Shown here one piece after another: positions 1,045 through 25,236 of a DNA stretch of 64,000 nt. The DNA lies in contig JAJEFE010000147.1 of NCBI GenBank assembly GCA_022820625.1, forward strand, positions 97,831 through 161,830, written 5' to 3'. The DNA comes from Gammaproteobacteria bacterium. GTDB taxonomy: Bacteria; Pseudomonadota; Gammaproteobacteria; Steroidobacterales; Rariloculaceae. The notes under the pieces are model-generated. The model made no database searches and had not been told where the DNA came from. It saw only the letters and a list, made by a program, of their open reading frames with translations. The translations under genes were made by a program, and so were the position numbers. Within the stretch, counting starts at the first letter, position 1; every line of letters starts with the position of its first letter.

Positions 1045-2781
1045 ATGATACGCAACTACCTTCCGGGAATTGTAATCGGCTTGCTGCTGGGAGGGACTGC
1101 ATCGGCCCAGACCGTGGAGGAATTGGTGGCGCGAGGCGGCGAGTTGTTTCACGCGGACATCGGATGCCACGTTTGCCATGGTCCGAACGCCCAGGGGCTG
1201 GTGGGTCCCACGCTGCACTTCGGGCCCACGCCGGTGGACATCTTCGATCAGCTCGAAAGCAACCCGATGATGGGCGTGATCGTCGCGGAAATGGATCCCA
1301 GCGACGCCGACCTCGAAGCCATCGCCATGTACATTCGCACCCTGGCGGACCTCCCGCCGGACCTTGGGCTGGTGGAGGGCTGGCGCACGGCGCTGGCGAC
1401 GGTCAAGGCGAACCAGGCGCAGCAGTTGGAGTTCATGAAGACGCCGCGGGACCTGCAGGTGGAGGCCATCGAGACCTTTGCCTCCGTGCAGGAGACCTGG
1501 ACCCGGCGGGCCAGGGAGGGCAACCTCACCAGCCACTACCAGACCGAGGTTATCGCCACGTTCGATCCCGGCGAGCCCAAGTTCACGCCCGAGCCCGGCA
1601 AGACCTACTTCTACGAGAACGTGGGCACGACCAGTTCGCCGTCGGTGCTGTACGACGGCTACGTGCCGCCGCCCAGCAACCAGATCGTGGTCGGCGATGC
1701 CGAGACCAAGGAAATCATCGCCAGCTACATGTTGCCGGAGAGCCTGCGCGCGACGGTCCACGGTACGGTCATGTCGCCCGACGGCCGCTACGTGTACATC
1801 ATCGGTGCGAGGCCCGGGCAGGCGGACAATGAGCCCACGGTGAATTCGTCGGCGACGCTGATCAAGGCGGACGCCCTCACCCTGCAGCCCATCAAGCAAT
1901 TCACCATCGGCGGGCGGATCCATCATGCGCAGGCTTTCCGCGATCTCGTGCTCGTCGACATGTTCGCGCGCGACCCGGACGGGCTCGGCGTCTTTCTGCT
2001 GGACCCGGAAACCGACGAGGTTGTCGGCGGCATCCGCGATGTCGACCTGGGCGGCTTTGCCTACACTGCGTGGTCCGACAAGGACTACGAGTACATCTAT
2101 GCGCTGGTTGAGCCCGCCGGTTACGCGCCGGGCCGCGCGACCGGCATGTTCGCTGCGGTGAGCATGTATCAGGGCCGGTTCACGGCCTTGCGCCCGTTCT
2201 GGATCGCCAAGATCGATCCGGACACCTGGGAGGTGCTGCGCGAATACCCCATCCCCGGCTATCGGCCCAACTGGCTCGTCGTGGATTCGGCCAAGGAGAA
2301 CATGTACGTCATCAACTCGCTCTCCAATGCTGCCAAGATCAATATCGAAACAGGCGAGGTTGTCTGGACCAATGGCACCGGTATCGGTCCGTACGGCGCA
2401 TCGCTCAACATCGACGAGACCGAGCTCTGGGTCGCGGACAAGGGAGAAGGCGCTCACCACCTGGGCCGCACCGTCACCATCATCGATACCCAGACCGGAC
2501 ATGCCACCGAAACCCTCTACGGCGCCTACAAGGTGGACCATGTGCTGCTTGACCCCACCGGCACGGAAATGTGGGCCACCAGCAACGGCGAGGGCCGCAT
2601 CTACGTCTACGACGCCGAGTCCAGGGAACTGACGAACATCATCGACATGCCCGGCAACGGCGACGCCCACGGCCTCGTGTGGGTGCACTACGACGATAAC
2701 GGCGAACCCCGCGTGGTTCGCGACCAGGGGAATTTCCACGGCGGCGTCAATCCCGTCCTGGGGAATGCGCTGAATTTCTAG
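1045..2781 (+). CDS. Secreted c-type cytochrome domain fused to beta-propeller (copy 1)
   Basis: Signal peptide MIRNYLPGIVIGLLLGGTASAQ, heme motif CHVCH, repeated propeller-like blades; AGGAG RBS upstream; strong similarity to 12362..14101. Confidence 0.85.
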   Translation: MIRNYLPGIVIGLLLGGTASAQTVEELVARGGELFHADIGCHVCHGPNAQGLVGPTLHFGPTPVDIFDQLESNPMMGVIVAEMDPSDADLEAIAMYIRTLADLPPDLGLVEGWRTALATVKANQAQQLEFMKTPRDLQVEAIETFASVQETWTRRAREGNLTSHYQTEVIATFDPGEPKFTPEPGKTYFYENVGTTSSPSVLYDGYVPPPSNQIVVGDAETKEIIASYMLPESLRATVHGTVMSPDGRYVYIIGARPGQADNEPTVNSSATLIKADALTLQPIKQFTIGGRIHHAQAFRDLVLVDMFARDPDGLGVFLLDPETDEVVGGIRDVDLGGFAYTAWSDKDYEYIYALVEPAGYAPGRATGMFAAVSMYQGRFTALRPFWIAKIDPDTWEVLREYPIPGYRPNWLVVDSAKENMYVINSLSNAAKINIETGEVVWTNGTGIGPYGASLNIDETELWVADKGEGAHHLGRTVTIIDTQTGHATETLYGAYKVDHVLLDPTGTEMWATSNGEGRIYVYDAESRELTNIIDMPGNGDAHGLVWVHYDDNGEPRVVRDQGNFHGGVNPVLGNALNF

Positions 2782-2825
2782 GAGCCTGCGCGGATCCATT
2801 GAGGGAACTCGAAGAGCGCAAAAAG

Positions 2826-3827
2826 ATGTTCAGAGACCTCGCAATCGCCGCCGTCACTGCCGCCTTGGTGGCCGGCGCGTTCCATTTCCTGGATGACGCC
2901 GGCGAGTCTGTACCGCGGCCCGAACCCGAGGCCGCCGCCGCGCCCGAGCCGGCGGTCGACTTCCCGAGGACAGCCGACGGGCGGCCCGACTTCAGCGGCA
3001 TCTGGCAGACCAACAGCACGGCGAACTGGGATCTCCAAACCCACGACGCACGTCCGATGGTCGCGCAGGCCGGCGTCTACGAGGACGTCCCGGTGCTCGC
3101 GGCGCCCGTCGTCGCGCTCGGCACGGTCGGCTGGGTGCCGCCGGGCCTCGGCGTCGTGGAGGGCGGCGAGATTCCATATCAGCCCTGGGCCGCGGAGCGC
3201 AAGCGCGACAACCAGGCGAACTGGCTTGACCGCGATCCCGAACTCGGCTGCTACATGCCGGGCGTGCCGCGCGCGATGTACATGCCCTACCCGTTGCAGG
3301 TCATCCAGGGCACCGACAAGATCATGATGGTGTTCGAGTTCGCCAACGCGCAACGCACGATCAATCTCGACGAGGTCGCCCCCTACCCGGGCGAGGCGTT
3401 CATGGGCTACTCGGTCGGGCGCTGGGAGGGCGATACGCTGGTCGTGGATGTCACCGACTTCTCGCCCTATACCTGGTTCGACCGGGCAGGCAACTTCCAC
3501 AGCGACGCGCTGCACGTTGTCGAGCGCTACACGCCGATCGGCCCCAACGCGATCCGGTACGAGGCGACGATCGAAGACGAGAAAGTCTTCACCCGCCCGT
3601 GGACAATCAGCGTACCGCTGCTGCGCCGCCTGGAGCCCGATGCGCAGATTCTCGACTTCAAGTGCATCGAGCAGGCCGAGGAGACGATCTACGGGCACCT
3701 GCGCAAGGAGCCGCTCGTCGAAAGATGGGAAGGCGAGACGATGATCATCGACGTCACGCGCAAGATTCCGCCGGAGGACGTACTCTACGAGCTGCTATGG
3801 TCGGGCAACCCGCCCGGGGAGCAATGA
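2826..3827 (+). CDS. Uncharacterised secreted protein of the 'GRPDFSGIW...VGRWEGDTLVVDV' family
   Basis: N-terminal hydrophobic segment; motifs GRPDFSGIW and VGRWEGDTLVVDVTDF shared with 4354..5484 and 10129..11163. Alternative TTG start at 2799. Confidence 0.8.
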   Translation: MFRDLAIAAVTAALVAGAFHFLDDAGESVPRPEPEAAAAPEPAVDFPRTADGRPDFSGIWQTNSTANWDLQTHDARPMVAQAGVYEDVPVLAAPVVALGTVGWVPPGLGVVEGGEIPYQPWAAERKRDNQANWLDRDPELGCYMPGVPRAMYMPYPLQVIQGTDKIMMVFEFANAQRTINLDEVAPYPGEAFMGYSVGRWEGDTLVVDVTDFSPYTWFDRAGNFHSDALHVVERYTPIGPNAIRYEATIEDEKVFTRPWTISVPLLRRLEPDAQILDFKCIEQAEETIYGHLRKEPLVERWEGETMIIDVTRKIPPEDVLYELLWSGNPPGEQ

Positions 3828-3850
3828 TAATGACCGGGAGGATCGAGCCG

Positions 3851-4261
3851 ATGAACGCATCATGGTATTTCGGAATTGCCGCCGCGTTGCCCTTGACCTT
3901 CGGCGCAGGGGCCGCGCAGGCACACCACGCGTTCGCGGCCGAATTCGACGCCAATCAGCCGGTGCACTTTACCGCGACGGTCAAGCGCGTACGCTGGACG
4001 AATCCGCACACCTGGTTCTTCGTCGAGGTCACGCAGCCGGACGGCACCGTCGAGGAATGGGCCATCGAGGCCGGCACGCCCAACGTGCTCTACCGGCGCG
4101 GCTTCACGAAGGACTCGCTGGCCCCGGGGACGGAAGTCATCATCGACGGCTACCGCGCCAAGGACGGCTCGCGCCGGGCCAACGGCAGGGACATCACGCT
4201 GCCGGACGGGCGCACGCTGTTCATGACCTCGCCCAGGACCGGCGCGCCCGAAAGACCCTGA
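3851..4261 (+). CDS. DUF6152-like secreted protein
   Basis: Signal peptide ending QA|HHAFAAEFD; motif WTNPHTWFFVEV; GGGAGG-like RBS upstream. Confidence 0.8.
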   Translation: MNASWYFGIAAALPLTFGAGAAQAHHAFAAEFDANQPVHFTATVKRVRWTNPHTWFFVEVTQPDGTVEEWAIEAGTPNVLYRRGFTKDSLAPGTEVIIDGYRAKDGSRRANGRDITLPDGRTLFMTSPRTGAPERP

Positions 4262-4262
4262 T

Positions 4263-4352
4263 CGCCTGACGCGCCGCACGCCGTCGCGCTGCACTCCGGC
4301 GCACGGTACTCTGACGCACCGCGCTCCAGCGCGCCGTCCTCCGGCACGCCGC
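4263..4352. repeat. Six degenerate 15-bp tandem units filling the convergent intergenic gap
   Basis: cgcctgacgcgccgc / acgccgtcgcgctgc / actccggcgcacggt / actctgacgcaccgc / gctccagcgcgccgt / cctccggcacgccgc. Confidence 0.6.
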
Positions 4353-4353
4353 G

Positions 4354-5484
4354 CTATTCGACGTTGCCGCCCGTCGCGTTGTCCTGCGTTGCCGGGTCCG
4401 GGCCGTGCCCCTCCGCGAACGCCCGCTCCGCAGCCCGCGTATTGGCCAGCATGCCGATCATGCCGTAGTTGCCTTCGTGGCAGCCGCCCTCGAAGACCTG
4501 GTTCTCGTAGTCGCTGTTCTTCGTCAGCTCCTGAACCATCGTAAAAGGCCGCGTAAACGTGGTCGGGTCATCCACCGTGACTTCGTAGCGCAGCGTCTCG
4601 GCGTCGAGCCGGGTGAAGCGCTCGACCAGGTGCAGGTTCTCGCGCGAGCCGTGGAAGTTCGTCGTCTCGGTGAAGTTCCTGACGTCGACGACGAGCGCGT
4701 CCCCCTCCCAGCGGCCGCGCGCGTCGCCGTAGCGCAGGCGCATGGACGCCGGCAGGTGCGGACGGTCGGTGATCGGGACGATGCGCGTGAAGCCCTGCCC
4801 CTGGCCCGCGTCGTAATGTATGCCGAGCGCTTCCGCCGATTGCACGAGCCGCGCAACGCCGCCGAAGGTGCCCGACTCGAGCATGAGCGGCATGCCGTAG
4901 CCGAAACAGCGCTCGGTTCCGCTGCGGTCCTCGGGTCCGTCGGCGCGGTTGATTCGGTCGAGGTTGTAGTCGGGCGACGGCTCGCCGCGGCGCGGCGAGA
5001 TGGGTCCGGGCCGCCCGCCCGACGTTCCCTGCAGCAGCGCCGCCAGGAACTCGGTCTTCTCCGCGATCCGCGCCGCGGCTTCGGGGGTCAGCGGCGGGAG
5101 CCGGCCGTCGGGCGGGTCGACGATGAGCGACGTGCGCCGCCCCCGCTGCAGCGAAGGATCGCCGAACCAGTGCTGGTTGTACGCCCGTGCGACGTCCCTC
5201 TCCGTGCCCGCAAACTCGCGGCCGTCGCGGCCCGGCCGCTGCGCCCGTTCTACAAGTTCCGCTTCGGCGGCGGCGATCTCCTCCTCGGTCAGAAATTCGC
5301 GCTCCCCGTATTCCCCGGGCCGCTGGAGCGGCGTGACGAAGGGATTGCTCCAGATGCCCGCGAGGTCGGGATCGCCCCAGGGCGTTCGGCTCTCTTGCCC
5401 GGCGGCCGGCGAACCGGAAAGCAGGGCGGCCGCGAGTACGCCCGAAGCAGCGAATCGGATAGATCTCATCTCATGCTCCCTCAA
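4354..5484 (-). CDS. Uncharacterised secreted protein, 'GRWEGDALVVDV' family
   Basis: Signal peptide (MRSIRFAASGVLAAALLSGSPAAGQ); GDPDLAGIW and RGRWEGDALVVDVRNF motifs. Start may be the internal ATG at 5469. Confidence 0.8.
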   Translation of the reverse strand: MREHEMRSIRFAASGVLAAALLSGSPAAGQESRTPWGDPDLAGIWSNPFVTPLQRPGEYGEREFLTEEEIAAAEAELVERAQRPGRDGREFAGTERDVARAYNQHWFGDPSLQRGRRTSLIVDPPDGRLPPLTPEAAARIAEKTEFLAALLQGTSGGRPGPISPRRGEPSPDYNLDRINRADGPEDRSGTERCFGYGMPLMLESGTFGGVARLVQSAEALGIHYDAGQGQGFTRIVPITDRPHLPASMRLRYGDARGRWEGDALVVDVRNFTETTNFHGSRENLHLVERFTRLDAETLRYEVTVDDPTTFTRPFTMVQELTKNSDYENQVFEGGCHEGNYGMIGMLANTRAAERAFAEGHGPDPATQDNATGGNVE

Positions 5485-5518
5485 GGTCTTCCGTGATCAT
5501 AGCAACTCGGTGCAGCGG

Positions 5519-5595
5519 CATCCCGCGGCATCCCGCGGAGTCCCGGGCATGCCGGGGAGTCCCGGGTATTCGGCGGAGTCCCGGGTATTCGGCGC
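5519..5595. repeat. Compound tandem repeat: 2 x 10 bp then 3 x 19 bp
   Basis: catcccgcgg x2 (5519-5538), then agtcccgggcatgccgggg / agtcccgggtattcggcgg / agtcccgggtattcggcgc (5539-5595). Confidence 0.8.
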
Positions 5596-5677
5596 TGTTT
5601 GCCGGGGCGACGGTAACGTAATATCGGCGCCTGGAACAGCGATTGGGGCATTGGCGTGTCCTTCCCGGGAGACGAGC

Positions 5678-6751
5678 ATGGCGAACCGCAGAGAGTTTCT
5701 GAAAACCATCGGTGCCGCGGCCGGCAGCGCATGGCTCGCGGGTCGCGGGCTCGATGCAGGCGCTCAGTCGGCCCGCCGCGAGATCACAATCAACGGCCGC
5801 CGCGTCACCACCGTCGACATTCACGCCCACGCTGTGTTCCCGGAGTTGTCCGAGGTGATCGCCGGCACGCCGCTCGACCGAAGCTTCCCGGACTGGCAGG
5901 TACTCGGACCTTCGCGCATTGAGGCGATGAACGAGCGCGGCATCGATTATCAGGCGCTGTCGATGACGATTTCGGGCCACTGGTGGTATGGCGCGGACGA
6001 GGCGCTCGCGGACCGTATCGTGCGCACGGCCGATGAAGCCCTCGCCACCTGGGTCGAGCGGCACCCGGACCGCTTCGTCATGTTATCGTCTCCGGCGCTG
6101 CCCTACCCGGAGCTCGCCGCCGCGCAGCTCGAGTACGCGGTCACGCAACTGGACGCCCGGGGCGCGTGCGTCGGCGGCCAGGTCGAAGGCGAGTTTCCTT
6201 CAACCGTACGCTTCGATCCGTTCTGGGCGAAGTGCGAGGAGCTCGACGTGCCCGTCTTCATGCACCCTGCGCTCGGCGCGCCGAACCTCGTCATGGAGCA
6301 CACGTTGCAGGGGCGCGGCGGGCTGTTCAATGTGGTCGGTGGCCCATTCGAGACGACGCTGTTTCTGACGCACATGATGTTCGACGGCACGCTGGACCGT
6401 TTCCCGGGGCTCAGGATCGTCGGCGCACACGGCGGCGGCTATCTGCCGTCCTATCTCGGCCGCACGGAGGTCGCCTGCGAGCGTTTCCCGGAGGATCCCT
6501 GCCTCAACACGAAGCAGCCTAGCGAGTACATGCGCACGCAGATCTTCGTCGACTCGATGGTGTTCTCGGAGGAGGGTATCCGGCATCTAGTCGAGGAGAT
6601 GGGCGCGACACAGGTCGTCTATGGCACCGACATCCCGTTCCCGTGGCCCGAGACCATGCATCACATCGTCGACTCGCCGAACCTGAGCGACGAAGACAAA
6701 ACGCTGATCCTCGGCGGCAACCTCATGCGGCTGCTCCGCATCGAGGCGTAG
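5678..6751 (+). CDS. Amidohydrolase-2 (ACMSD-like) family protein with Tat-like signal
   Basis: MANRREFLKTIGAAAGSAWLAG signal; VDIHAHAVFPE, FMHPALGAPN, IVGAHGGGYLPS, VVYGTDIPFPW metal/catalytic motifs. Confidence 0.85.
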   Translation: MANRREFLKTIGAAAGSAWLAGRGLDAGAQSARREITINGRRVTTVDIHAHAVFPELSEVIAGTPLDRSFPDWQVLGPSRIEAMNERGIDYQALSMTISGHWWYGADEALADRIVRTADEALATWVERHPDRFVMLSSPALPYPELAAAQLEYAVTQLDARGACVGGQVEGEFPSTVRFDPFWAKCEELDVPVFMHPALGAPNLVMEHTLQGRGGLFNVVGGPFETTLFLTHMMFDGTLDRFPGLRIVGAHGGGYLPSYLGRTEVACERFPEDPCLNTKQPSEYMRTQIFVDSMVFSEEGIRHLVEEMGATQVVYGTDIPFPWPETMHHIVDSPNLSDEDKTLILGGNLMRLLRIEA

Positions 6752-6761
6752 GGACGCCGCC

Positions 6762-7940
6762 GTGTCCGAACCCTTTGTCATCGACAGGCAGCAGGCGGCC
6801 GTGCTCGACACCGTGCGCCGCTTCAATGCCGAGGTTGTCGCGCCGGTCGCCGCCGAGCTGGACGCCCGTGCCGACCCCGAAGAGAGTTTCTCCTGGGAGA
6901 TCGTCGAGAAGGCCGACGAGTTCGGGTTGCGCACGATGACGCTGTCGGAGGACTGGGGCGGCGGCGGCGCGGACTGCGTGACGACTGCGATGATTATCGA
7001 GGAACTCGCCAGGGCCGACATCGGCATCTCGGTCGTCATGGCGCAGACGCTGAAGATCGCGCAGATCCTCCAGTGGGCGCTGACGCGCGAGCAGCAGGAG
7101 AAGTTCATCCCGATCTTCCGTGATGACCCGCGGGGCGTGCTCGCGATCGGCATCAGCGAGCCGGATACCGGCTCAAACTACTTAATCCGGCAGGACGTGC
7201 CCTTTCACACCAAGGCCGAGAAGGTCGACGGCGGTTGGCGTATCAACGGCATGAAGCGTTTCATCTCCAACGGCAATCGCGCCGGCGTCTACCTGTTGTT
7301 CGCCCAGACCGCGGCGGACAAGTCGCTCTTCGACGGCTCTACCTGTTTCGTCATCGATCGCGGGCTCGAGGGTTTCACGATCGGCCGCGTGCACGACAAG
7401 ATGGGCGAGCGCCTCGCGAACAACGCGGAGCTCATCTTCAAGAACTGCTTCGTGCCCGACGGGCAGGTCGTGGGCGAGGTGGGCAACGGCTTCCAGGTGC
7501 TCGTCGATTTCTTCCCCGCGTCGAACGCCTACGCGGCGGCGAGCGTGCTCGGCGCCGCGACTGCCGCCTATGAGCGCTCGCTTGAGTGGTGCCGCAATCG
7601 CGTACAGGGCGGCAAGCCGCTGATCGAGCACGACGGCATCAGGACACAACTGGCCGAGATGCACATGCTGCTCGACGTCGCTCGCACCTACGTGCGCAAG
7701 GCCACCTGGATGGCCGATCACCGCGAGACCGCCTGGGACCCCGCGCTGTCCGCCTTCCCGAAAGTGTTTGCGTCGCACGCGGCGTGGAAGATCGTGACCT
7801 GGGCCGCTGAGCTGCACGGCGGATCGGGGTACATGAAGGAGACGGGTATCGAAAAGCTCGTGCGCGACGTGGCAGCGTTCCTGCACTCTGACGGCGTCAA
7901 TCGGACCCTACTGCTCAAAGCCGCGCAGATGATCTTCTAG
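6762..7940 (+). CDS. Acyl-CoA dehydrogenase family protein
   Basis: GTG start; AIGISEPDTGSNY, INGMKRFISNGNRAG, C-terminal ELHGGSGYMKETGIEKLVRDV typical of the ACAD fold. Confidence 0.9.
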   Translation: MSEPFVIDRQQAAVLDTVRRFNAEVVAPVAAELDARADPEESFSWEIVEKADEFGLRTMTLSEDWGGGGADCVTTAMIIEELARADIGISVVMAQTLKIAQILQWALTREQQEKFIPIFRDDPRGVLAIGISEPDTGSNYLIRQDVPFHTKAEKVDGGWRINGMKRFISNGNRAGVYLLFAQTAADKSLFDGSTCFVIDRGLEGFTIGRVHDKMGERLANNAELIFKNCFVPDGQVVGEVGNGFQVLVDFFPASNAYAAASVLGAATAAYERSLEWCRNRVQGGKPLIEHDGIRTQLAEMHMLLDVARTYVRKATWMADHRETAWDPALSAFPKVFASHAAWKIVTWAAELHGGSGYMKETGIEKLVRDVAAFLHSDGVNRTLLLKAAQMIF

Positions 7941-7942
7941 CC

Positions 7943-8044
7943 ATGGCGAAAGTCCTCCTGCATGGGGTGGATGGCCGCTTGGCCAAAGACCGCCTGACTG
8001 AAGACTGCCTGGCCGAAGACGGCCTATCGACTGACGACGCATGA
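7943..8044 (+). CDS. Candidate 33-aa small ORF with pentapeptide repeats, ATGA-overlapped with the next gene
   Basis: MAKVLLHGVDGRLAKDRLTEDCLAEDGLSTDDA*; stop TGA 8042-8044 overlaps ATG at 8041. Not in the ORF track (below length cutoff). Confidence 0.35.
   Translation: MAKVLLHGVDGRLAKDRLTEDCLAEDGLSTDDA
7976..8035. repeat. Four 15-bp degenerate tandem units
   Basis: cgcttggccaaagac / cgcctgactgaagac / tgcctggccgaagac / ggcctatcgactgac. Confidence 0.75.
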
Positions 8045-9072
8045 AAGCACTCGTCCTGCATGCGCCGAACACGCCGTTCGATCGGACCGACGTTCCCGAT
8101 CCCGTTGCGGGGCCGGGAGAAGCCGTCGCCAGGGTCTTTGCCTGCGGCGCCGGGCTGACGATTCAGCACTTCAAGGCCGGCCGCGTGCCGGCCGTGTTCC
8201 CGCGCATCATCGGTCACGAAATCTGCGCGGAGATCGTCGAGGCAGGCGCCGGCGTTACGTCGCTCGAAGTCGGTGACATCGTCACATCGTACTTCTATCT
8301 CAACTGCGGCCACTGCCGGATGTGCGTCGAAGACTTCCAGCCGCTCTGCGACAACTTCGGCGGTTACGTGGGCCGCGAGATCGACGGCGGTTATGCCGAG
8401 TACATCAAGCTGCCGGAGCGGAACTTCATCCGCCTGCCGGACGGGCTCGACTGGCAGGGGCAGCCCGCGCATGTGGGCGTGGCAATGGACGCGCTCGCGA
8501 CCCCTTACAAGGTGCTGCGCCACGCGAGAATCCGCGAGGGCGAAACCGTCGCCGTGTTCGGCGCGGGCGGCGGACTCGGCATCCATCAGGTCATGATGGC
8601 GCGATGGGCCGGCGCGCGGGTGATCGCGGTGGATACAAAGGCGTCAAAGTTCGAAGCGTGCCGCGACGCCGGCGCCGACGAGGTCGTCGATGCGTCTGCG
8701 GTGGAAGTCGTCGAAGCGCTCCTGGAGCTGACGGGCGGCGCGGGCGTCGACGCCGCCGTCGACTACGTGTCCGCGAAGAGCACGCTGGAAGCCGGCGCAC
8801 GTGCGCTCGGCAAGCGCGGCCGGCTGGTAACGCTCGGAGGCGCGGGCGAGGCGTTCAGCTTGAGCGCGAGGGAACTCCTCTACAAGGAGCTCGCCGTCCT
8901 GGGCAGCCGCTACGTGACGCCGATGGAGATCCGCGAAACCTACGACCTCATGGCCCGCGGCGAGGTCTGGCCGATCGTGACCGAAATCCGGCCGATGGAA
9001 GAAGCCGAGCAACTGCACGAACTCGTCGAGAACGGCGAAGTAACAGGTCGGGCGGCGCTCAGGATCGCGTAG
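8041..9072 (+). CDS. Zinc-type alcohol dehydrogenase family protein
   Basis: GHE zinc motif (IIGHEICAEIVEAG), structural-zinc-like Cys cluster CGHCRMCVEDFQPLC, Rossmann VFGAGGGLG. Confidence 0.9.
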   Translation: MKALVLHAPNTPFDRTDVPDPVAGPGEAVARVFACGAGLTIQHFKAGRVPAVFPRIIGHEICAEIVEAGAGVTSLEVGDIVTSYFYLNCGHCRMCVEDFQPLCDNFGGYVGREIDGGYAEYIKLPERNFIRLPDGLDWQGQPAHVGVAMDALATPYKVLRHARIREGETVAVFGAGGGLGIHQVMMARWAGARVIAVDTKASKFEACRDAGADEVVDASAVEVVEALLELTGGAGVDAAVDYVSAKSTLEAGARALGKRGRLVTLGGAGEAFSLSARELLYKELAVLGSRYVTPMEIRETYDLMARGEVWPIVTEIRPMEEAEQLHELVENGEVTGRAALRIA

Positions 9073-9124
9073 ACTGTTGACGCGAATACAAGTCTTCAAG
9101 AATGCGCTACCGGGGAGGACAGCA

Positions 9125-10027
9125 ATGCCAACCAACGAATTATCCTGGTCACTCTTCCGATGTCTCGCGCGCCTCGTCCCGGCCAGCCTGCTGCTGGCGG
9201 CTCCCATGGCCGGATTGCAGGCGCAGCCCGCAGATTGGGTGGAGCCGTTCCCGGGACATCGGATCATCGGGAATCTGTACGCGGTTGGTACCGCCGGCCT
9301 GGGCGTGTTCCTGATCACATCGGACGAGGGTCATATCCTGATCAACACCGGATTGGAGGACTCCACGTCCCTTATCAGGGAGAACATCGAGTCGGTGGGC
9401 TATCGCCTGGAGGATGTGAGGATTCTCTTGACCATGCAGGCGCACTGGGACCACACGGCTGCGTTGGCGGAAATCAAGGAGATCGCCGAGGCCGAGATGT
9501 GGGCCACGGAGGGCGACGGCAGGGTGCTCGAGGACGGCGGTTTCAGCGACCCGCATTTCGGCGGCCGCGTGTCGTTCGAACCGGTGGAAGTCGACCGGAT
9601 CATCAGCGATGGCGAGATCATCGAACTGGGGGACATTCGCCTGCTGGTTCACCATCATCCGGGACATACGGAGGGCAGCTCCAGCTACTCCATGCAGGTG
9701 ACCGAAGACGGCCGCGACTACAACGTCGTGGTCGCGAACATGGGCACCATCAACGACGGCAAGCGGCTGGTGGTCGATCCCACGTACCCCGGGGTGGCGG
9801 AGGATTTTGCGAACACCTATGCAAGCCAGAAGGCCATGGATGTGGACGTCTGGGTCGCTGCCCACGGCGGCCAGTATGGGCTGCTCGACAAGTACCAGCC
9901 GGGCCAGGCATACAGTCCGGATACCTTCGTCGATCCCGAAGGGTTTCTCGCCGAGGTTGAGCGACTTGAGCAAATCTACGAGGAACACATTGCGGCAGAG
10001 CGCGCCGAAGAGGGCCGCGCGGAGTAA
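9125..10027 (+). CDS. Secreted MBL-fold hydrolase, subclass B3-like (QxHxDH variant)
   Basis: LLTMQAHWDHTAALAEIKE, HHHPGHTEGSSSYSM, AAHGGQYGL; signal peptide present. Confidence 0.85.
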   Translation: MPTNELSWSLFRCLARLVPASLLLAAPMAGLQAQPADWVEPFPGHRIIGNLYAVGTAGLGVFLITSDEGHILINTGLEDSTSLIRENIESVGYRLEDVRILLTMQAHWDHTAALAEIKEIAEAEMWATEGDGRVLEDGGFSDPHFGGRVSFEPVEVDRIISDGEIIELGDIRLLVHHHPGHTEGSSSYSMQVTEDGRDYNVVVANMGTINDGKRLVVDPTYPGVAEDFANTYASQKAMDVDVWVAAHGGQYGLLDKYQPGQAYSPDTFVDPEGFLAEVERLEQIYEEHIAAERAEEGRAE

Positions 10028-10072
10028 CGCTGCGGAATGTCGGCGCGGAGTAACGCCCTGGAATGGCGCCGG
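10021..10072. repeat. Imperfect 26-bp tandem duplication spanning the stop codon
   Basis: ggagtaacgctgcggaatgtcggcgc / ggagtaacgccctggaatggcgccgg. Confidence 0.6.
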
Positions 10073-10128
10073 GCGAACTCGGCACCCTTTGCGCTGAAGC
10101 CACGATAACGAAAAAACTGGAGGGGAAC

Positions 10129-11163
10129 ATGCCGAGACTGGCCCTGTATTGCTTCGCGATCGTCCTGATCGCCCCTGTCAACGCATCGGCGCATCACTCC
10201 CGCGCGTACTTCTACGATACCAACCGCGTGATCGAGGCCGAGGGCGTCATCACCCGAATTCTCTGGCGGAATCCGCACACGCGCTTCTGGCTGCAGGATG
10301 ACAACGGCGAGGAGTGGGAGCTTGAAAGTACGCCGCCGGCGACACTGCTCCGCCACGGGTTGGGACCGGAGGCACTGGCCGAGGGCACCCGGGTCCGCGT
10401 CGCCGGTCCGGCCGCGCGTTTCGAGGCCCACGCGATGGAGGTCCACAATGTCCTGCTTCCGGATGGCCGGGAGCTGCTTATACAGACCGTGGCGCGACCG
10501 CGCTGGACGGAGGACGCGCCGATTCTGCAACCCAGCGAATTTGCGGAGGCCGATGTAGCGGCGGCCGAAGCGTCGGCGAACGGCATTTTCCGCGTTTGGA
10601 GCCGTGAATACGGCCAAACATTCAGCCTGCGCCCCGATAACGACTACCCGTTGACGGAAGCCGCGCTGGCCGCGAGAGAGGCCTACGATCCGGTGGCGGA
10701 CAATCCGATTCCCGGCTGCACCGCCAAGGGCATGCCGATGATCATGTCCAATCCGCTGCCCTTTGAATTCGTCGACGAAGGTGACGAGATTCACCTGAAG
10801 ATCGAGGAGTATGACCTGGTGCGCATCATCCACTTGGATACGGGCGCGGACACGGACACGGGCGCCGACGTGGGCGCGGCGAGCCCGTCGATCCTGGGGC
10901 ACTCCGTCGGGCGCTGGGAGGATGGCGACCTGGTCGTGACCACGACGCAGATCAACTTCATGCACTATGGTTCAAGTATCGCCTTGAGCGCGGACGCGCA
11001 CGTCCTTGAGCGTTTTGAATTGAGTGGCGTCGAGCGGCGGCTCGACTACACGTTGACCGTCACGGATCCGGAGACGTTTACCGAGCCGCTGACCGCGCGC
11101 AGGCACTGGGTGTGGATGCCCGGGGAAACGGTCAAGGACTGGTCCTGCGTGGAGTCTCCCTAG
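10129..11163 (+). CDS. Fusion: DUF6152-like domain + VGRWE-family domain, secreted
   Basis: Signal peptide ending NASA|HHSRAYFYD; LWRNPHTRFWLQD then PGCTAKGMPMIM...GHSVGRWEDGDLVVTTTQINF...WSCVES. Confidence 0.85.
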   Translation: MPRLALYCFAIVLIAPVNASAHHSRAYFYDTNRVIEAEGVITRILWRNPHTRFWLQDDNGEEWELESTPPATLLRHGLGPEALAEGTRVRVAGPAARFEAHAMEVHNVLLPDGRELLIQTVARPRWTEDAPILQPSEFAEADVAAAEASANGIFRVWSREYGQTFSLRPDNDYPLTEAALAAREAYDPVADNPIPGCTAKGMPMIMSNPLPFEFVDEGDEIHLKIEEYDLVRIIHLDTGADTDTGADVGAASPSILGHSVGRWEDGDLVVTTTQINFMHYGSSIALSADAHVLERFELSGVERRLDYTLTVTDPETFTEPLTARRHWVWMPGETVKDWSCVESP

Positions 11164-11250
11164 AAGCAGTCGCGGAAGTCCGGTCGCCTGTTTCGCGACA
11201 CTGAGTGGCCGCACTGAAACGGCGGCAGCGCACAACACGGAGTAGCCAGC

Positions 11251-12153
11251 ATGAAGACGGACCATATTGCAGTGACAATCGCAGCAATGCTTGCCGCGTT
11301 CGCGGCGTACGGGCAGTCGGGAGGGGCGCCGGAACTGCCCGAAGGGGCCACGGTCACGGCCGACGTCCCGTTCGCGAACGTTGACAGACACGAACTCGCG
11401 CTCGATCTCTACATGCCGGCCGCTGTCGAGCACCCACCGCTGCTCGTGTGGGTGCACGGCGGCGCGTGGCGCGCGGGTAGCAGAAAATCGGTATCGACGC
11501 TTGCATTCGTCGAGGCGGGTTATGCGCTGGCCAGCGTCAGCTACAGGCTTTCCGGCGTGGCGCCGTTTCCCGCCCAGAGCCACGACATCAAGGGGGCGAT
11601 TCGTTTCCTGCGTGCCCACGCCGCCGATTACGGCTATGACGCGTCGCGAATCGGGATTCTCGGTTCATCGGCGGGCGCGCATCTCGCCGCACTCGTGGGC
11701 GTAACCAACGGGAACGCCGAGCTTGAGGGCAACGTCGGCGGCAACCTGGAGCAGTCTTCGGACGTCCACGCAATCGTCGCCTACTACCCGGCGACGAATC
11801 TGGTCAGCATTCTCGATCAGTCGACACCGTTCGGGCTGAACGTGCGCGTGCCGGCGCTGGAGGCGCTGCTCGGTGGTGCGATGGATGAGAAATCCGAGCT
11901 TGCGCGCCTTGCAAGCCCCGTGTTCCACGTCGATGCCGACGATCCGCCGTTGTTCCTGCTGCACGGCGACCAGGACCCGCAGATGCCGATCAACCAGTCC
12001 CACGAACTGCACGGCGTGTACAAGCAGCATGGCCTGGCCGCAGCATTCGAGGTGGTTCACAGTTCGCCTCATGGCGGCCCGGCCTTCTACGACGCCGACC
12101 GCAACGCCATGGTCGGATCGTTTCTGGATGCGCATCTGCGCGGCGGTCACTGA
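11251..12153 (+). CDS. Secreted alpha/beta hydrolase (carboxylesterase/BD-FAE-like)
   Basis: LVWVHGGAWRAGS oxyanion motif, GILGSSAGAHLAAL nucleophile elbow, LFLLHGDQDPQMP, HSSPHGG catalytic His. Confidence 0.85.
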   Translation: MKTDHIAVTIAAMLAAFAAYGQSGGAPELPEGATVTADVPFANVDRHELALDLYMPAAVEHPPLLVWVHGGAWRAGSRKSVSTLAFVEAGYALASVSYRLSGVAPFPAQSHDIKGAIRFLRAHAADYGYDASRIGILGSSAGAHLAALVGVTNGNAELEGNVGGNLEQSSDVHAIVAYYPATNLVSILDQSTPFGLNVRVPALEALLGGAMDEKSELARLASPVFHVDADDPPLFLLHGDQDPQMPINQSHELHGVYKQHGLAAAFEVVHSSPHGGPAFYDADRNAMVGSFLDAHLRGGH

Positions 12154-12361
12154 CGCCCGGATCATGGGTCGTCTCCGAGAAGATTCGCCGAACAGCGGCG
12201 CTGGGGCCGACAGGAAGAATCTGCAGGCGCTCCCAGGCAGGCACTCCCACCAGGGCTCGCGTGAAAATCCCGTAACCGGGGGACCCGGATCGCCTGCGCT
12301 ATACTTTCCCGTCCAGCCGCATCCACAGCGGCCACCGAACATTGACGCGGAGAAAACCGGT

Positions 12362-14101
12362 ATGAAACGCAGCCATTTGTCGGGACTGGTCATCGGCCTG
12401 TTGTTGAGCGTGACCGCATCGGCGCAGGATTCCGTGGAGGCGCTCGTGGAACGGGGCGCAGAGCTATTCCACGCCGACATCGGTTGCTGGGTCTGCCACG
12501 GCGAGACGGCCGAGGGCCTGGTGGGGCCCACGTTGCACTTCGGACCTGAGCCGGTGGATATCTTCGATCAGCTCGAGAACAACCCGATGATGGGCGTGAT
12601 CGTTGCGGAAATGGATCCCAGCGACACCGATCTTGAGGCGATCGCCATGTACATTCGCACCCTGGCGGACCTGCCGCCGGACATCGGCCTGGTGCAGGGC
12701 TGGCGGGACGCGCTGGCGGCGGTGCGGGCGAATCAGGGCGAGGAGCAGGAGTTTGCGAAGACGCCGCGGGACCTGCAGGTGGAGGCGGTGGAGACCTTCG
12801 TCTCGGTGCAGGAGACCTGGACGCGGCGCTCCATCGAAGGCAGCGTCTGGAGCGAATACCCGTCGCGGATCGTGGCGACCTGGGACCCCGGCGAGCCCAA
12901 GTTCACGCCCGAGCCCGGCAAGACGTATTTCTACGAGAATGTGGGCACCACCAGTTCGCCGTCCGTGCTGTTCGACGGCTACGCGCCCCCGCCAAGCAAC
13001 CAGCTGGTGGTGGGCGACGCCCAGACCATGGAGATCATCGCCACCCACATGATCCCCGAGCGTCTCCGCGCCGTGGTGCATACCTCGGCCATGTCGCCGG
13101 ACGGCAAGTACGCCTACATGGTCGGTCCCCGCGAGCCCACCGCCGACGGCACGCCGGACCCGGCCGGCGCCTGGACCATGCTCAAGCTCGACGCCATCAC
13201 CCTGCAGCCGGTGGCGCAGGTCACCATCGGCGCGCGGCTCCACCACGGCCAGGTCTTCAGGGACAAGGTGCTCTTCGACGTCTTTGTGCGCGACCCCGAC
13301 GGGCTGGGGCTGTTCCTGTACGACCCCGAGACCGACGAGATCTTGGGCGGCGTCAGGGACGTCGACATGGGCGGCTTCATCTACACGGTGTGGACCGACA
13401 AGGACTACGAGTACATCTACGCGCTCATGGAGCCCGCCGGCTACGCGCCGGGACGCAGTACGGGCATGCGGGGGGTGACGATGATGTACCAGGGCACGCT
13501 GCTGGCCATGCGCCCGTTCTGGGTCGCCACCATCGACCCCGACACCTGGGAAGTGGTCGCCGAATATCCCATCCCCGGCTATCGCCCCAACTGGGCCGTC
13601 ATCGACAACGCCAAGGAGTACATCTATCCGATCATGAGCAGTTCCGTGGCCGCCAAGGTGGACATCAGGACCGGCGAGATCATCTGGACCAACGGAACCG
13701 GCATCGGGCCCTACGGCGCCGCACTCAACGCGGAAGAGACCGAGCTCTGGGTCGCCGACAAGGGCGAGGCGGCGCATCACCTGGGCCGTACCATCACCAT
13801 CATCGACACCCAGACCGGCCACGCCACCGAGACGCTCTACAGCGCCTACAAGCTGGACCACGTCCTGCTCTCGCCCAACGGCAAGGAGATGTGGGCGACC
13901 AGTAACGGCGAGGGCCGGATCTACGTCTACGATGTCGACACCAAGGAACTGATCCGCAAGATCGAGATGCCCGGCAACGGCGACGCCCACGGGCTCATCT
14001 GGGTGCACTACGATGAGAACGGGGAGTCCCGTACCGTGCGCGACCAGGGCAATTTCCACGCCGGTATCAATCCCTTCGAGGGGGTTATACTCGATTACTA
14101 G
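12362..14101 (+). CDS. Secreted c-type cytochrome domain fused to beta-propeller (copy 2)
   Basis: MKRSHLSGLVIGLLLSVTASAQ signal, CWVCH heme motif; near full-length similarity to 1045..2781. ORF-track start at 11873 is an artefactual extension. Confidence 0.85.
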   Translation: MKRSHLSGLVIGLLLSVTASAQDSVEALVERGAELFHADIGCWVCHGETAEGLVGPTLHFGPEPVDIFDQLENNPMMGVIVAEMDPSDTDLEAIAMYIRTLADLPPDIGLVQGWRDALAAVRANQGEEQEFAKTPRDLQVEAVETFVSVQETWTRRSIEGSVWSEYPSRIVATWDPGEPKFTPEPGKTYFYENVGTTSSPSVLFDGYAPPPSNQLVVGDAQTMEIIATHMIPERLRAVVHTSAMSPDGKYAYMVGPREPTADGTPDPAGAWTMLKLDAITLQPVAQVTIGARLHHGQVFRDKVLFDVFVRDPDGLGLFLYDPETDEILGGVRDVDMGGFIYTVWTDKDYEYIYALMEPAGYAPGRSTGMRGVTMMYQGTLLAMRPFWVATIDPDTWEVVAEYPIPGYRPNWAVIDNAKEYIYPIMSSSVAAKVDIRTGEIIWTNGTGIGPYGAALNAEETELWVADKGEAAHHLGRTITIIDTQTGHATETLYSAYKLDHVLLSPNGKEMWATSNGEGRIYVYDVDTKELIRKIEMPGNGDAHGLIWVHYDENGESRTVRDQGNFHAGINPFEGVILDY

Positions 14102-14102
14102 G

Positions 14103-14166
14103 CGGCCGGGCGAAGAGCAGGCCAGGTGTGGAACCGGCCGGGCGAGGAAGCGGTCAGGTGCGGAAC
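14103..14166. repeat. Imperfect 32-bp tandem duplication
   Basis: cggccgggcgaagagcaggccaggtgtggaac / cggccgggcgaggaagcggtcaggtgcggaac (about 26/32 matching). Confidence 0.7.
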
Positions 14167-14246
14167 GGGTCGCGCACGGCGGTGTCCAATCCCTTGATTT
14201 GTCCGGATAAGGGCCTGGACATGGGTTGAGCCTGCGAGGAAGCCAC

Positions 14247-14948
14247 ATGGAACGGATAAACGCGATTATGCGGGCGATACCGCTCCCGGTGTTTGTGTTG
14301 GCCTGGGTGGGCGTCTGGATCTGGACGTTTGTTCTCGTGGCCCGCGTGGCCGATGCGCAGCATGGCGAGGCCGGCGCCCCTCCGGAGGCCGGCATCGCCC
14401 CGAGGGTCACCGTCCAGGGCAGCGATGACGCCTCCGAACACGTCCACGAACACGCCATGAGTTCCGAGCCGACGCTCGGCAACCCGCTTGAGGACATCGT
14501 CGTGGACTTCGAGCTGGTGGACCGCGACGGCCGGACCGTCACGGCAGCGGACTTCCGCGGCAGCCACGTGCTCCTCGGGTTCGGCTTCACCCACTGCCCC
14601 GACGTGTGCCCGCTGATGGTGCTGAACATGGGCGAGGCGGTCCGGGACACCGACGCCGTGGGCATCTTCATCAGCGTCGACACCGAACGCGACTCCCCCG
14701 AGATCACCGACCGGTACGCCTCGCGCTTCGGCGAGCGCATGGTCGGGCTGAGCGGCAACGTCTCCCAGATCAATGCCGCCGCCAATAATTTCAGGGTAAG
14801 CTATGTGGTCACCAAGTCGCACAACAACTACACCGTGCAGCATTCCGCCAACGTGTTCCTGATCGACCCCGACGGCCAAGTGGTCGACGTCTTCAATTTC
14901 TCCACGCCGGGCGAAGAACTGACGGCGGCCATCAGCCAGGGAAGCTAG
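14247..14948 (+). CDS. SCO1/SenC-family copper chaperone / thioredoxin-fold protein
   Basis: FGFTHCPDVCPLM (CxxxC) and downstream VQHSANVFLIDPDG His; N-terminal TM; GCGAGGA RBS. Confidence 0.9.
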   Translation: MERINAIMRAIPLPVFVLAWVGVWIWTFVLVARVADAQHGEAGAPPEAGIAPRVTVQGSDDASEHVHEHAMSSEPTLGNPLEDIVVDFELVDRDGRTVTAADFRGSHVLLGFGFTHCPDVCPLMVLNMGEAVRDTDAVGIFISVDTERDSPEITDRYASRFGERMVGLSGNVSQINAAANNFRVSYVVTKSHNNYTVQHSANVFLIDPDGQVVDVFNFSTPGEELTAAISQGS

Positions 14949-14960
14949 ACGCGATCCGCC

Positions 14961-16334
14961 ATGACCACGACCACCGCAACCCGCCGCGTAAACCCCGTCC
15001 AGCTCGGCGCGCTCCTGTTCGTGGCGTTCGCCATCGCCCTGACGTGGCTCGTGTTCCCTTACTTCGTGCAGGGACAACAGCTACTGCGAGGCGTCGGCGA
15101 CCAGGCGCGCCTGATGAAGGCCGGCACCGTATCCCAGTACCTCACCCGGGAACTCATCCGCACACCGGACCTGGAGATCACGGCCACCTTCGCGACGGAC
15201 GAGTATTTCCAGTACGTGGACCGCGCCGCCATCATCGCCAACCTGCGCCCGGACCGGAACCTGATCTTCTTCGTCGCCGAAACCATCCACCGCGGCGACC
15301 TCATCGACCAGGTGCCCACCGCGACGCTGCGGGTCGGCGAGCAGGAGTACCTGCCCGAGATCTCCGACGGGCCGAGCATCGCCGAGCACCACCGGCTGAG
15401 CGTCTACAGCTTCCCCAAGCGGGACGCCGCGGGCAACGAGATCCTCAATCAGGCAGACGCCGACCGGCTGCGCCTCTACGTCTCCAATCCCTATCTGGGC
15501 AGCGAGCGCGACCTGACCTTCGTCGGCATCTGGGAAGCGCCCTACAGCCTGCCGGAAGAGCTCAAGTCCCGGGCGGACATCACCCCCGTGGCCGTCCTCG
15601 CCCTGGGGGCAGGGCTGCTGTCGTCGGTACTGACCCCGTGCCTGCTGCAACTGGTGGTGGTCTTCGGCGGCGTCATCGCCGGTTTCTCCACCGTGCCGGG
15701 CGCCACCGCGGGCGGCGCGGCGCAACTGACGCCCGTGATCCGGCGCAAGATCATGCAACTCGCCTTCGCCTTCGTGCTCGGGTTCCTCAGCCTCTACGCA
15801 CTGGCGGGCGCCTTCATCGGGGCCGTGGGCCACCAGGCCCAGCTCGCCTTCTCCGAATACAGCCGCATGGTGGCCGTCATCTCGGGGTTGCTCGTCATCC
15901 TCCTGGGCCTCTGGGTGGGCTTCCGCGGCACCCGCGACTTCGCCTGCCGCATTCCGGACCGCCAGGCCATGAACTCCCTGTCCCTGCGCGACCGGGCCGG
16001 CGCCCTGCTGACCTCCGCCGGCTACGCCCTGGGATGCACCGCCTGCTTCGGCGGCGCCATCGTCGCCACGCTCGTGGTCTACGTGGGCGCCATCGGCAGC
16101 CCCTACATCGGCGCCGCCATCATGATGATCTTCGGCATCGGCGTGGCGATCCCGTTCCTGCTCTCGGCCTGGTACATCTCCAAGGTGGACAGCATCCTCA
16201 CCTTCCTCGCCGGCAACGCCCGGCCGCTGAGCCTGGCCAGCATGGCCATCATCATCATCTTCGGCCTGATCCTCGTCACCGACAACTTCCACACCGTCAG
16301 CGACCTCATCTACCCGTACCTGGGACTGAGTTAG
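14961..16334 (+). CDS. CcdA/DsbD-type transmembrane electron-transfer (cytochrome c biogenesis) protein
   Basis: Multiple TM segments with paired Cys: SSVLTPCLLQLVV and GYALGCTACFGGA. Confidence 0.8.
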   Translation: MTTTTATRRVNPVQLGALLFVAFAIALTWLVFPYFVQGQQLLRGVGDQARLMKAGTVSQYLTRELIRTPDLEITATFATDEYFQYVDRAAIIANLRPDRNLIFFVAETIHRGDLIDQVPTATLRVGEQEYLPEISDGPSIAEHHRLSVYSFPKRDAAGNEILNQADADRLRLYVSNPYLGSERDLTFVGIWEAPYSLPEELKSRADITPVAVLALGAGLLSSVLTPCLLQLVVVFGGVIAGFSTVPGATAGGAAQLTPVIRRKIMQLAFAFVLGFLSLYALAGAFIGAVGHQAQLAFSEYSRMVAVISGLLVILLGLWVGFRGTRDFACRIPDRQAMNSLSLRDRAGALLTSAGYALGCTACFGGAIVATLVVYVGAIGSPYIGAAIMMIFGIGVAIPFLLSAWYISKVDSILTFLAGNARPLSLASMAIIIIFGLILVTDNFHTVSDLIYPYLGLS

Positions 16335-16336
16335 CG

Positions 16337-17491
16337 ATGAATCCGGGTGCGCACATGGGTCTCTTTGCGAGAAAGGCCGGACTGACCGGTGCGGTGGCGG
16401 CGCTTGTGCTGGCCCCGCTCCCGCTGACCGCCCAGGACGTGGACATCTCCAACACCCAGCGCCTGATGTTCGCCGCCGACGCCGAAGACCCCATCATCGA
16501 TGTGATCGATCTGACCCGGAACGAGGTCGTGTACCGCATCGAGACCGAGGACCGCGTCGACCACATGGTCGCGACCCCGTTCGCCCCCGTGCTCATCTAC
16601 ACCAACCTCGAAAAGCGCCTGGTCGGCATGTACGACCTGCGAAACAAGACCGTCGCAAAGCAGGTCGAACTGCCCATCGCCCCCCGCCACATGGTGCTCG
16701 ACACCACCGGCTCCAAGATCGGCTTCAGCGACAGCGAGGACGGCGGGTTCGTGCTGTTCTCCGCCTACGGCGGACAGATCCTGTTCGCGCTGGAAGACCT
16801 GCCGCCCACCTCCGACGTGCTCTTCGACCCCAACGAGGTGGACATCTGGTACAGCAACAGCCGCGACGGCACCGTCGGTCTGATCGACAGCAACGTGCAG
16901 CGGACTTACGAGATCCCGGTCGCCGACGAACCGGGGCAGGCGCTGTCATCGCCAAGCCGCAGCCTGGATGGCCGCTATGTCTATGTCGCCAACGAGACCA
17001 CGGGGGAGGTCTACGGGGTGAACGCGTTCTCAAAGGTCATCTACAAGACCTTCGAGGTTGGGGCTTCGCCGGCGCGGCCGTATACGACGCCCGAAGGCGT
17101 GTTCCTGTACATGATGGACAAGGACACGGGGCGGTTTGTCTCCATCGAGCAGCATCTGTTCACGGAGTTCAGCGATGTTGTGGTTGGGGAGGGGATCGAC
17201 CTGGTCACCGTGGGGCGGTTCGACCGGATGAATCTGCTGGCCAGTTCGGAGAATCGCAATTACTACATTTTCGATAACAACGTGCGGTCGGTGGTGGATT
17301 CGGGGGAGCTGAATTTCACGCCGTTGGATGCGGCGGGGTCGGCGGATGGGCGAAGGGCGTATCTGGCTTCGGCGGATAGTCCGGAGGTGGCGGTGGTTGA
17401 TCTTGAGCGGCAGCGGTTGAGTTATATCGCGGCGGCGAACAATCGTATCGGCGCGTTTACGATCGGGCTATCGAACAACGTCTGCCACTGA
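16337..17491 (+). CDS. Secreted beta-propeller (YVTN/NirF-like repeat) protein
   Basis: MNPGAHMGLFARKAGLTGAVAALVLAPLPLTAQ signal; blades such as IDVIDLTRNEVVYRIETEDRVDHMV and RYVYVANETTGEVYGVNAF. The upstream part of ORF 15044..17491 is a shadow frame of the preceding gene. Confidence 0.75.
   Translation: MNPGAHMGLFARKAGLTGAVAALVLAPLPLTAQDVDISNTQRLMFAADAEDPIIDVIDLTRNEVVYRIETEDRVDHMVATPFAPVLIYTNLEKRLVGMYDLRNKTVAKQVELPIAPRHMVLDTTGSKIGFSDSEDGGFVLFSAYGGQILFALEDLPPTSDVLFDPNEVDIWYSNSRDGTVGLIDSNVQRTYEIPVADEPGQALSSPSRSLDGRYVYVANETTGEVYGVNAFSKVIYKTFEVGASPARPYTTPEGVFLYMMDKDTGRFVSIEQHLFTEFSDVVVGEGIDLVTVGRFDRMNLLASSENRNYYIFDNNVRSVVDSGELNFTPLDAAGSADGRRAYLASADSPEVAVVDLERQRLSYIAAANNRIGAFTIGLSNNVCH

Positions 17492-24262: not shown

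Positions 24263-25236
<974 letters not shown>

Follow-up and report, generated by a model that had tools for sequence, protein, structure and literature searches.

The 64,000-nucleotide (nt) stretch of a Rariloculaceae genome analyzed here (the window; all coordinates are positions in it) raises the question of which enzyme is encoded by its long cytochrome c-beta-propeller genes, and whether the SCO and CcdA-like genes found next to them serve that enzyme. An earlier note on this DNA had read positions 1045-17491 as one block, encoding an uncharacterized periplasmic oxidoreductase together with its metal/heme maturation genes. All five genes were found on the + strand as open reading frames with the starts and stops assigned there:

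12362..14101, + strand: cytochrome c-beta-propeller protein of 579 amino acids (aa), with a signal peptide, an N-terminal c-type heme domain and a C-terminal propeller
14247..14948, + strand: SCO1/SenC copper chaperone-like protein, 233 aa (PF02630, E 1.5e-37)
14961..16334, + strand: CcdA/DsbD-type membrane protein that carries an additional beta-sandwich domain in the periplasm, 457 aa (PF02683, E 3.6e-10)
16337..17491, + strand: YncE-like periplasmic beta-propeller without a heme or cytochrome domain, 384 aa, with an invariant C-terminal Cys-His
1045..2781, + strand: second cytochrome c-beta-propeller, 578 aa, 73% identical to the 12362-14101 protein

We observed a defined domain build, a set of invariant residues, a conserved gene set and its co-occurrence across genomes, and we put at about even the chance that these belong to an undescribed family of periplasmic copper oxidoreductases in which several enzymes are served by one maturation set.

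The two long proteins are duplicates, and the last four genes follow one another closely in the same orientation, with gaps of 145, 12 and 2 bp, both as the earlier note had described. The single block did not hold up. Outside the genus, the only conserved order is cytochrome c-propeller, SCO, CcdA-like, YncE-like propeller, which corresponds to 12362-17491, and 1045-2781 is a dispersed paralogue outside this cassette, one of nine family members in the window's genome (in some of these, the heme domain is missing from the aligned part). In the family tree, the 12362 gene sits among SCO-linked copies, while the 1045 gene falls in a neighboring group that is mostly without the cassette.

The earlier note's expectation that propeller, SCO and CcdA-like genes would recur together was borne out. 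The cassette order recurs in many Gammaproteobacteria, where an orthologue of the 12362 gene is followed by SCO, CcdA-like and YncE-like genes at loci from other genera (L038-L040, L042, L043, L048, L050, L056 and L065; the L038 and L042 sequences stop before the YncE-like gene, the last of the cassette), and in L044 no SCO was detected in the cassette. The CcdA-like gene also accompanies the propeller in Alphaproteobacteria and Acidobacteria. Four loci of Rhodobacteraceae Alg231_30 have the order CcdA-like, YncE-like, then one to three cytochrome c-propellers; next to the first of these loci, a LysR-type gene was identified. The acidobacterial order is propeller, then CcdA-like. That the linkage occurs in three lineages and two gene orders speaks for selection and against recent descent. 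In the tree, SCO-linked sequences lie on one side of a weakly supported branch and CcdA-linked sequences without SCO on the other. Among 20 related genomes, 11 carry the propeller (1-15 copies) and 9 do not; the CcdA-like and YncE-like genes were found once each in 9/11 of the former (in G001, with the cassette split over two contigs) and in 0/9 of the latter, a distribution with a chance of about 3e-4 by the hypergeometric formula, calculated by hand and uncorrected for kinship. Of the 369 genomes in a class-wide sample, the window's own genome alone contained the propeller and the CcdA-like protein; neither was present in the other 368.

Both long proteins begin with what resembles a signal peptide; they further have a heme motif, CxxCH, together with a conserved Met (C42, C45, H46, M77), and a predicted beta-propeller (mean AlphaFold pLDDT of 89.8 for the 12362 protein). 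Neither reached a Pfam or NCBIfam cut-off, and the propeller family is nameless in both databases. Its alignment comprises 61 sequences, including acidobacterial ones at about 33% identity. A search of a viral fold library returned generic propellers only, a plasmid search gave no match, and a literature search yielded no relevant paper on Rariloculus or on a YVTN-SCO-cytochrome enzyme.

Exactly five propeller histidines, and no others, are invariant in 61/61 sequences: H240, H294, H295, H500 and H543 (H566 is 90% conserved). All five, including the adjacent HH pair, are at the start of the innermost strand, on four consecutive strands of the seven that carry the motif; when the seven repeats are stacked, the residues at this position read VH, HH, YT, NW, YG, DH and AH. 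The equivalence of the positions derives from the repeat pattern and predicted strands rather than from model coordinates. A plausible metal site in the predicted propeller, which the earlier note had required, thus stands at the level of sequence, as five invariant histidines at equivalent hub positions. We consider it likely that the hub holds a metal site. The conserved gene set likewise supports the proposal of an uncharacterized periplasmic oxidoreductase with maturation genes of its own; as to the metal, we infer copper, which we judge to be the reasonably probable choice.

The hub histidines appear to be arranged much as in the copper sites of nitrous-oxide reductase (NosZ) and thiocyanate dehydrogenase (TcDH). 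The CuZ site of NosZ draws a histidine from each blade except one, with two consecutive histidines from a single blade (PMC11573801). When the two HH pairs are put in register, the propeller family has histidines on the HH blade and the three preceding blades, and two other blades are without. TcDH has the same kind of histidine list, with an HH pair at the hub (PMC6504805), and is likewise a periplasmic propeller, copper-dependent and with a c-type cytochrome as acceptor (PMC9456337, PMC6504805). A profile of the H240-H295 hub segment finds the solved thiocyanate dehydrogenases with a best E of 9e-8, a segment picked after the full profile had given 0.005. However, the TcDH active site comprises seven published histidines together with Lys103, Gln156, Glu288, Asp314, Asp529 and Arg544, a set that the family with its five invariant histidines does not contain. 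TcDH further has a Tat signal and a separate cytochrome, whereas the propeller family has a Sec-type signal and a fused cytochrome, and the profile match is weak.

By overall profile, the closest relatives are the YncE/TIGR03866 propellers associated with PQQ catabolism, although the family scores far below the TIGR03866 cut-off and YncE-type proteins have no cytochrome domain; we know of no five-histidine hub among them. The hhalign values were 99.7% for YncE-type propellers, 80% for cytochrome d1, 38% for thiocyanate dehydrogenase, 23% for SBP56 and 2% for NosZ. We interpret the family as one branch within the broad YncE/cd1 group of propellers, with its own histidine hub. Judged by these profiles and residues, it is not a member of the NosZ, thiocyanate dehydrogenase, SBP56 or cytochrome cd1 families.

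The helper proteins carry conserved residues suited to metal and thiol chemistry. The SCO protein has the CxxxC and distal His expected of SCO1/SenC members (C117, C121 and H199, invariant in 10 sequences) and a His/Met-rich N-terminal stretch. The CcdA-like protein has the features of the DsbD_TM family (39.9 bits against a cut-off of 27.1), with C227, C329, C359 and C362 invariant in the membrane part and H444 near the C-terminus. Unlike CcdA, it carries an extra periplasmic domain, the beta-sandwich, in which E107, H110, H143 and H144 are invariant; this N-terminal domain has His/Met-rich stretches in the acidobacterial proteins and no clear relative among solved folds (best E 1.4e-3). The YncE-like propeller gave sub-cutoff matches to TIGR03866 and to hydrazine synthase beta, and its terminal Cys-His (C383-H384) is retained in the distant Rhodobacteraceae copy. 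We infer that these three proteins deliver and reduce copper for the hub.

In the mechanism that we propose, a small c-type cytochrome domain with His/Met ligation is fused to a propeller whose hub would hold a His-ligated metal, most likely two or three copper ions. A substrate would be oxidized at the hub and its electrons would pass to the fused heme c and from there to the respiratory chain; this direction, oxidation with electrons to the fused heme, we favor by a small degree. SCO would load the copper, the CcdA-like protein would move electrons across the membrane so that SCO and the YncE-like protein's Cys-His tail stay reduced, and the His-bearing outer domain of the CcdA-like protein may join in handing over copper. 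One maturation set would then suffice for several enzyme paralogues of differing substrate range. A bolder version, which we hold only tentatively, is that the family represents a novel type of copper enzyme, namely a cytochrome c-propeller dehydrogenase that is self-contained, has a five-histidine hub cluster smaller than CuZ or the TcDH site, has radiated into many paralogues of different substrate range and is matured by a dedicated set of SCO, the CcdA-like protein and a Cys-His-tailed propeller.

Several observations weigh against a copper enzyme matured by this cassette. By profile, generic YncE-type propellers are the most similar, cytochrome d1 comes next, and the copper propellers are weaker matches. 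Two of the NosZ hub histidine positions are Thr and Tyr/Gly in the family, and the subset relation to the NosZ pattern is weak evidence, as about half of random patterns of the same size would also fit. Convergence of the hub ligands is a prediction from the repeat pattern and predicted strands, and propellers with zinc (AztD) or iron sites also exist. The Rhodobacteraceae and Acidobacteria loci have no adjacent SCO. Lastly, genomes G005 and G008 carry propellers with no cassette detected; G005 appears to match locus L041, with the contig ending just before the expected start of the cassette.

A copper-site reductase, in which electrons would run from heme c to the hub cluster as in a distant, cytochrome c-fused analogue of NosZ or another oxyanion reductase, would share the hub histidine layout with one consecutive HH pair (PMC11573801) and could account for the SCO neighbors. 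The NCBIfam model for clade III L-NosZ (NF052460) matches 20/61 members (best 1.1e-14), yet the scores, at most 53.8 bits in the family and 17.3 in the window protein, are far under the curated cut-off of 700, and we rejected this lead because they reflect generic propeller repeats, which give matches to YncE and hydrazine synthase beta as well. NosZ itself has a CuA domain and seven histidines, drawn from six of its seven blades, whereas the propeller family has five on four blades and heme c; its protein ends with the propeller, with no Pfam match to a CuA cupredoxin domain, and nos_propeller (PF18764) matched neither the proteins nor anything in the genome. Up to 15 paralogues per genome would also be unlike a reductase of a single gas, and we regard this explanation as unlikely. 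A thiol or organosulfur oxidase of the SBP56/MtoX kind, to which we give the same low standing, would be a copper-dependent propeller matured by the adjacent SCO. The mtoX enzyme depends on copper, has an adjacent SCO1/senC gene and includes an HH pair among its proposed ligands His89, His90, His140 and His412 (PMC5739008, PMC10362175), and an SCO1/senC gene does stand beside the propeller gene here (14247-14948) and beside its orthologues. However, SBP56 (PF05694) matched nothing in the proteins or the genome, SBP56 proteins have no cytochrome domain, the MauG neighbor of mtoX was not seen in the propeller cassettes, and the neighboring genes give no consistent sulfur signal.

A cytochrome cd1-type enzyme, related to NirS/NirN (PF02239) and with heme d1 in the propeller, would have the same domain order of an N-terminal cytochrome c and then a propeller. 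NirN and NirS are the top Foldseek matches, although their TM-scores are low (about 0.4). Half of the family matches Cytochrom_D1 weakly, and in the alignment H240 falls on the GYAVH His conserved in the d1 family, which we take to be the axial heme d1 ligand. Nevertheless, the window proteins score 20.7 and 16.9 bits, below the cut-off of 25.5 (32.5 in one acidobacterial relative), the histidines conserved in LHDGGWD and PHPG are not kept (the equivalent of the distal-pocket PHPG His, position 404, is His in 7/61), and HH294-295, H500 and H543 have no d1 counterpart. The genome encodes no full D1-family protein, and therefore no NirF for making heme d1. Given the missing ligands and this absence, we rejected heme d1, and the cd1-type explanation is the least probable of those considered. 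Another metal at the hub, as in a zinc chaperone or a 4-His non-heme iron oxygenase, with SCO and the CcdA-like protein acting on some other target, is slightly less likely than the two copper-based alternatives above. Carotenoid oxygenases, non-heme iron enzymes, use four histidines on four blades, and the periplasmic zinc chaperone AztD has two zinc sites in its propeller (PMC6689063). Against this, the fused heme of the c type and the linkage to SCO/CcdA speak for redox copper, and a chaperone would not need 9-15 paralogues. It is very improbable that terminal-oxidase assembly genes lie beside the propeller by chance. SCO and CcdA are classic factors of cytochrome oxidase and cytochrome c maturation, and the only other SCO found in the genome lies outside any oxidase operon, but the genes stay linked in distant phyla and under two different gene orders, relatives without the propeller also lack the cassette, and the block contains no oxidase subunit genes.

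Regarding the substrate, the earlier note had used the surrounding dehydrogenases and hydrolases as a guide, which had to be given up. The window neighbors (amidohydrolase, acyl-CoA dehydrogenase, alcohol dehydrogenase, metallo-beta-lactamase fold, hydrolase) accompany the propeller only in close relatives (L041, L038), and are conserved only within the genus. Other paralogues adjoin different catabolic genes, such as 2-oxoacid dehydrogenase E1/E2 beside Woeseia-clade copies and a PQQ dehydrogenase near others. There is no consistent substrate signal, and this variety fits several substrates rather than one. In the Woeseia-related loci (L059-L063), the propeller copy directly follows or overlaps the 2-oxoacid dehydrogenase E1 alpha, E1 beta and lipoyl E2 genes, with a TonB receptor downstream in at least three. 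The metallo-beta-lactamase-fold protein of the window (9125-10027) scores 286.7 bits against the NCBIfam subclass B3 beta-lactamase model (cut-off 240). In two loci of relatives, L039 (15107-20255) and L040 (15091-20253), about 95-165 bp separate the cassette from a MoxR AAA+/DUF58 group downstream; in the window this group begins at 24263, 6.8 kb after the cassette, and none of the other loci checked showed it downstream of the cassette. MoxR-type AAA+ proteins can serve in the activation of metal enzymes.

The stretch between the two long propeller genes also contains two DUF6152 (PF19649) genes, at 3692-4261 and 10126-11163. The window's genome (G000, 4.56 Mb) has 148 DUF6152 matches and 14 control genomes have none. 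An apparent linkage of DUF6152 to the propeller (20/73 loci) was rejected as mostly background, because the genome carries so many copies. In 38 related DUF6152 proteins, HH (90%) follows an apparent signal peptide, with NPH (86-97%) later, so the mature N-terminus may be His-His, resembling a copper histidine brace. A literature search found no paper mentioning DUF6152. Two secreted-looking proteins without a Pfam match (2826-3827, + strand, and 4354-5484, - strand) are related to the long DUF6152 family, with the same stretches of related loci matched.

Few copper propeller enzymes are known, namely nitrous-oxide reductase, thiocyanate dehydrogenase and methanethiol oxidase, and each handles a key molecule of the nitrogen or sulfur cycle. 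If our reading of the family as copper oxidoreductases is true, a group that carries a fused heme, reaches 15 paralogues per genome and has a conserved maturation set of its own would widen this class, and the single-copy cassette would make possible a simple genetic test of how the copper site is assembled.

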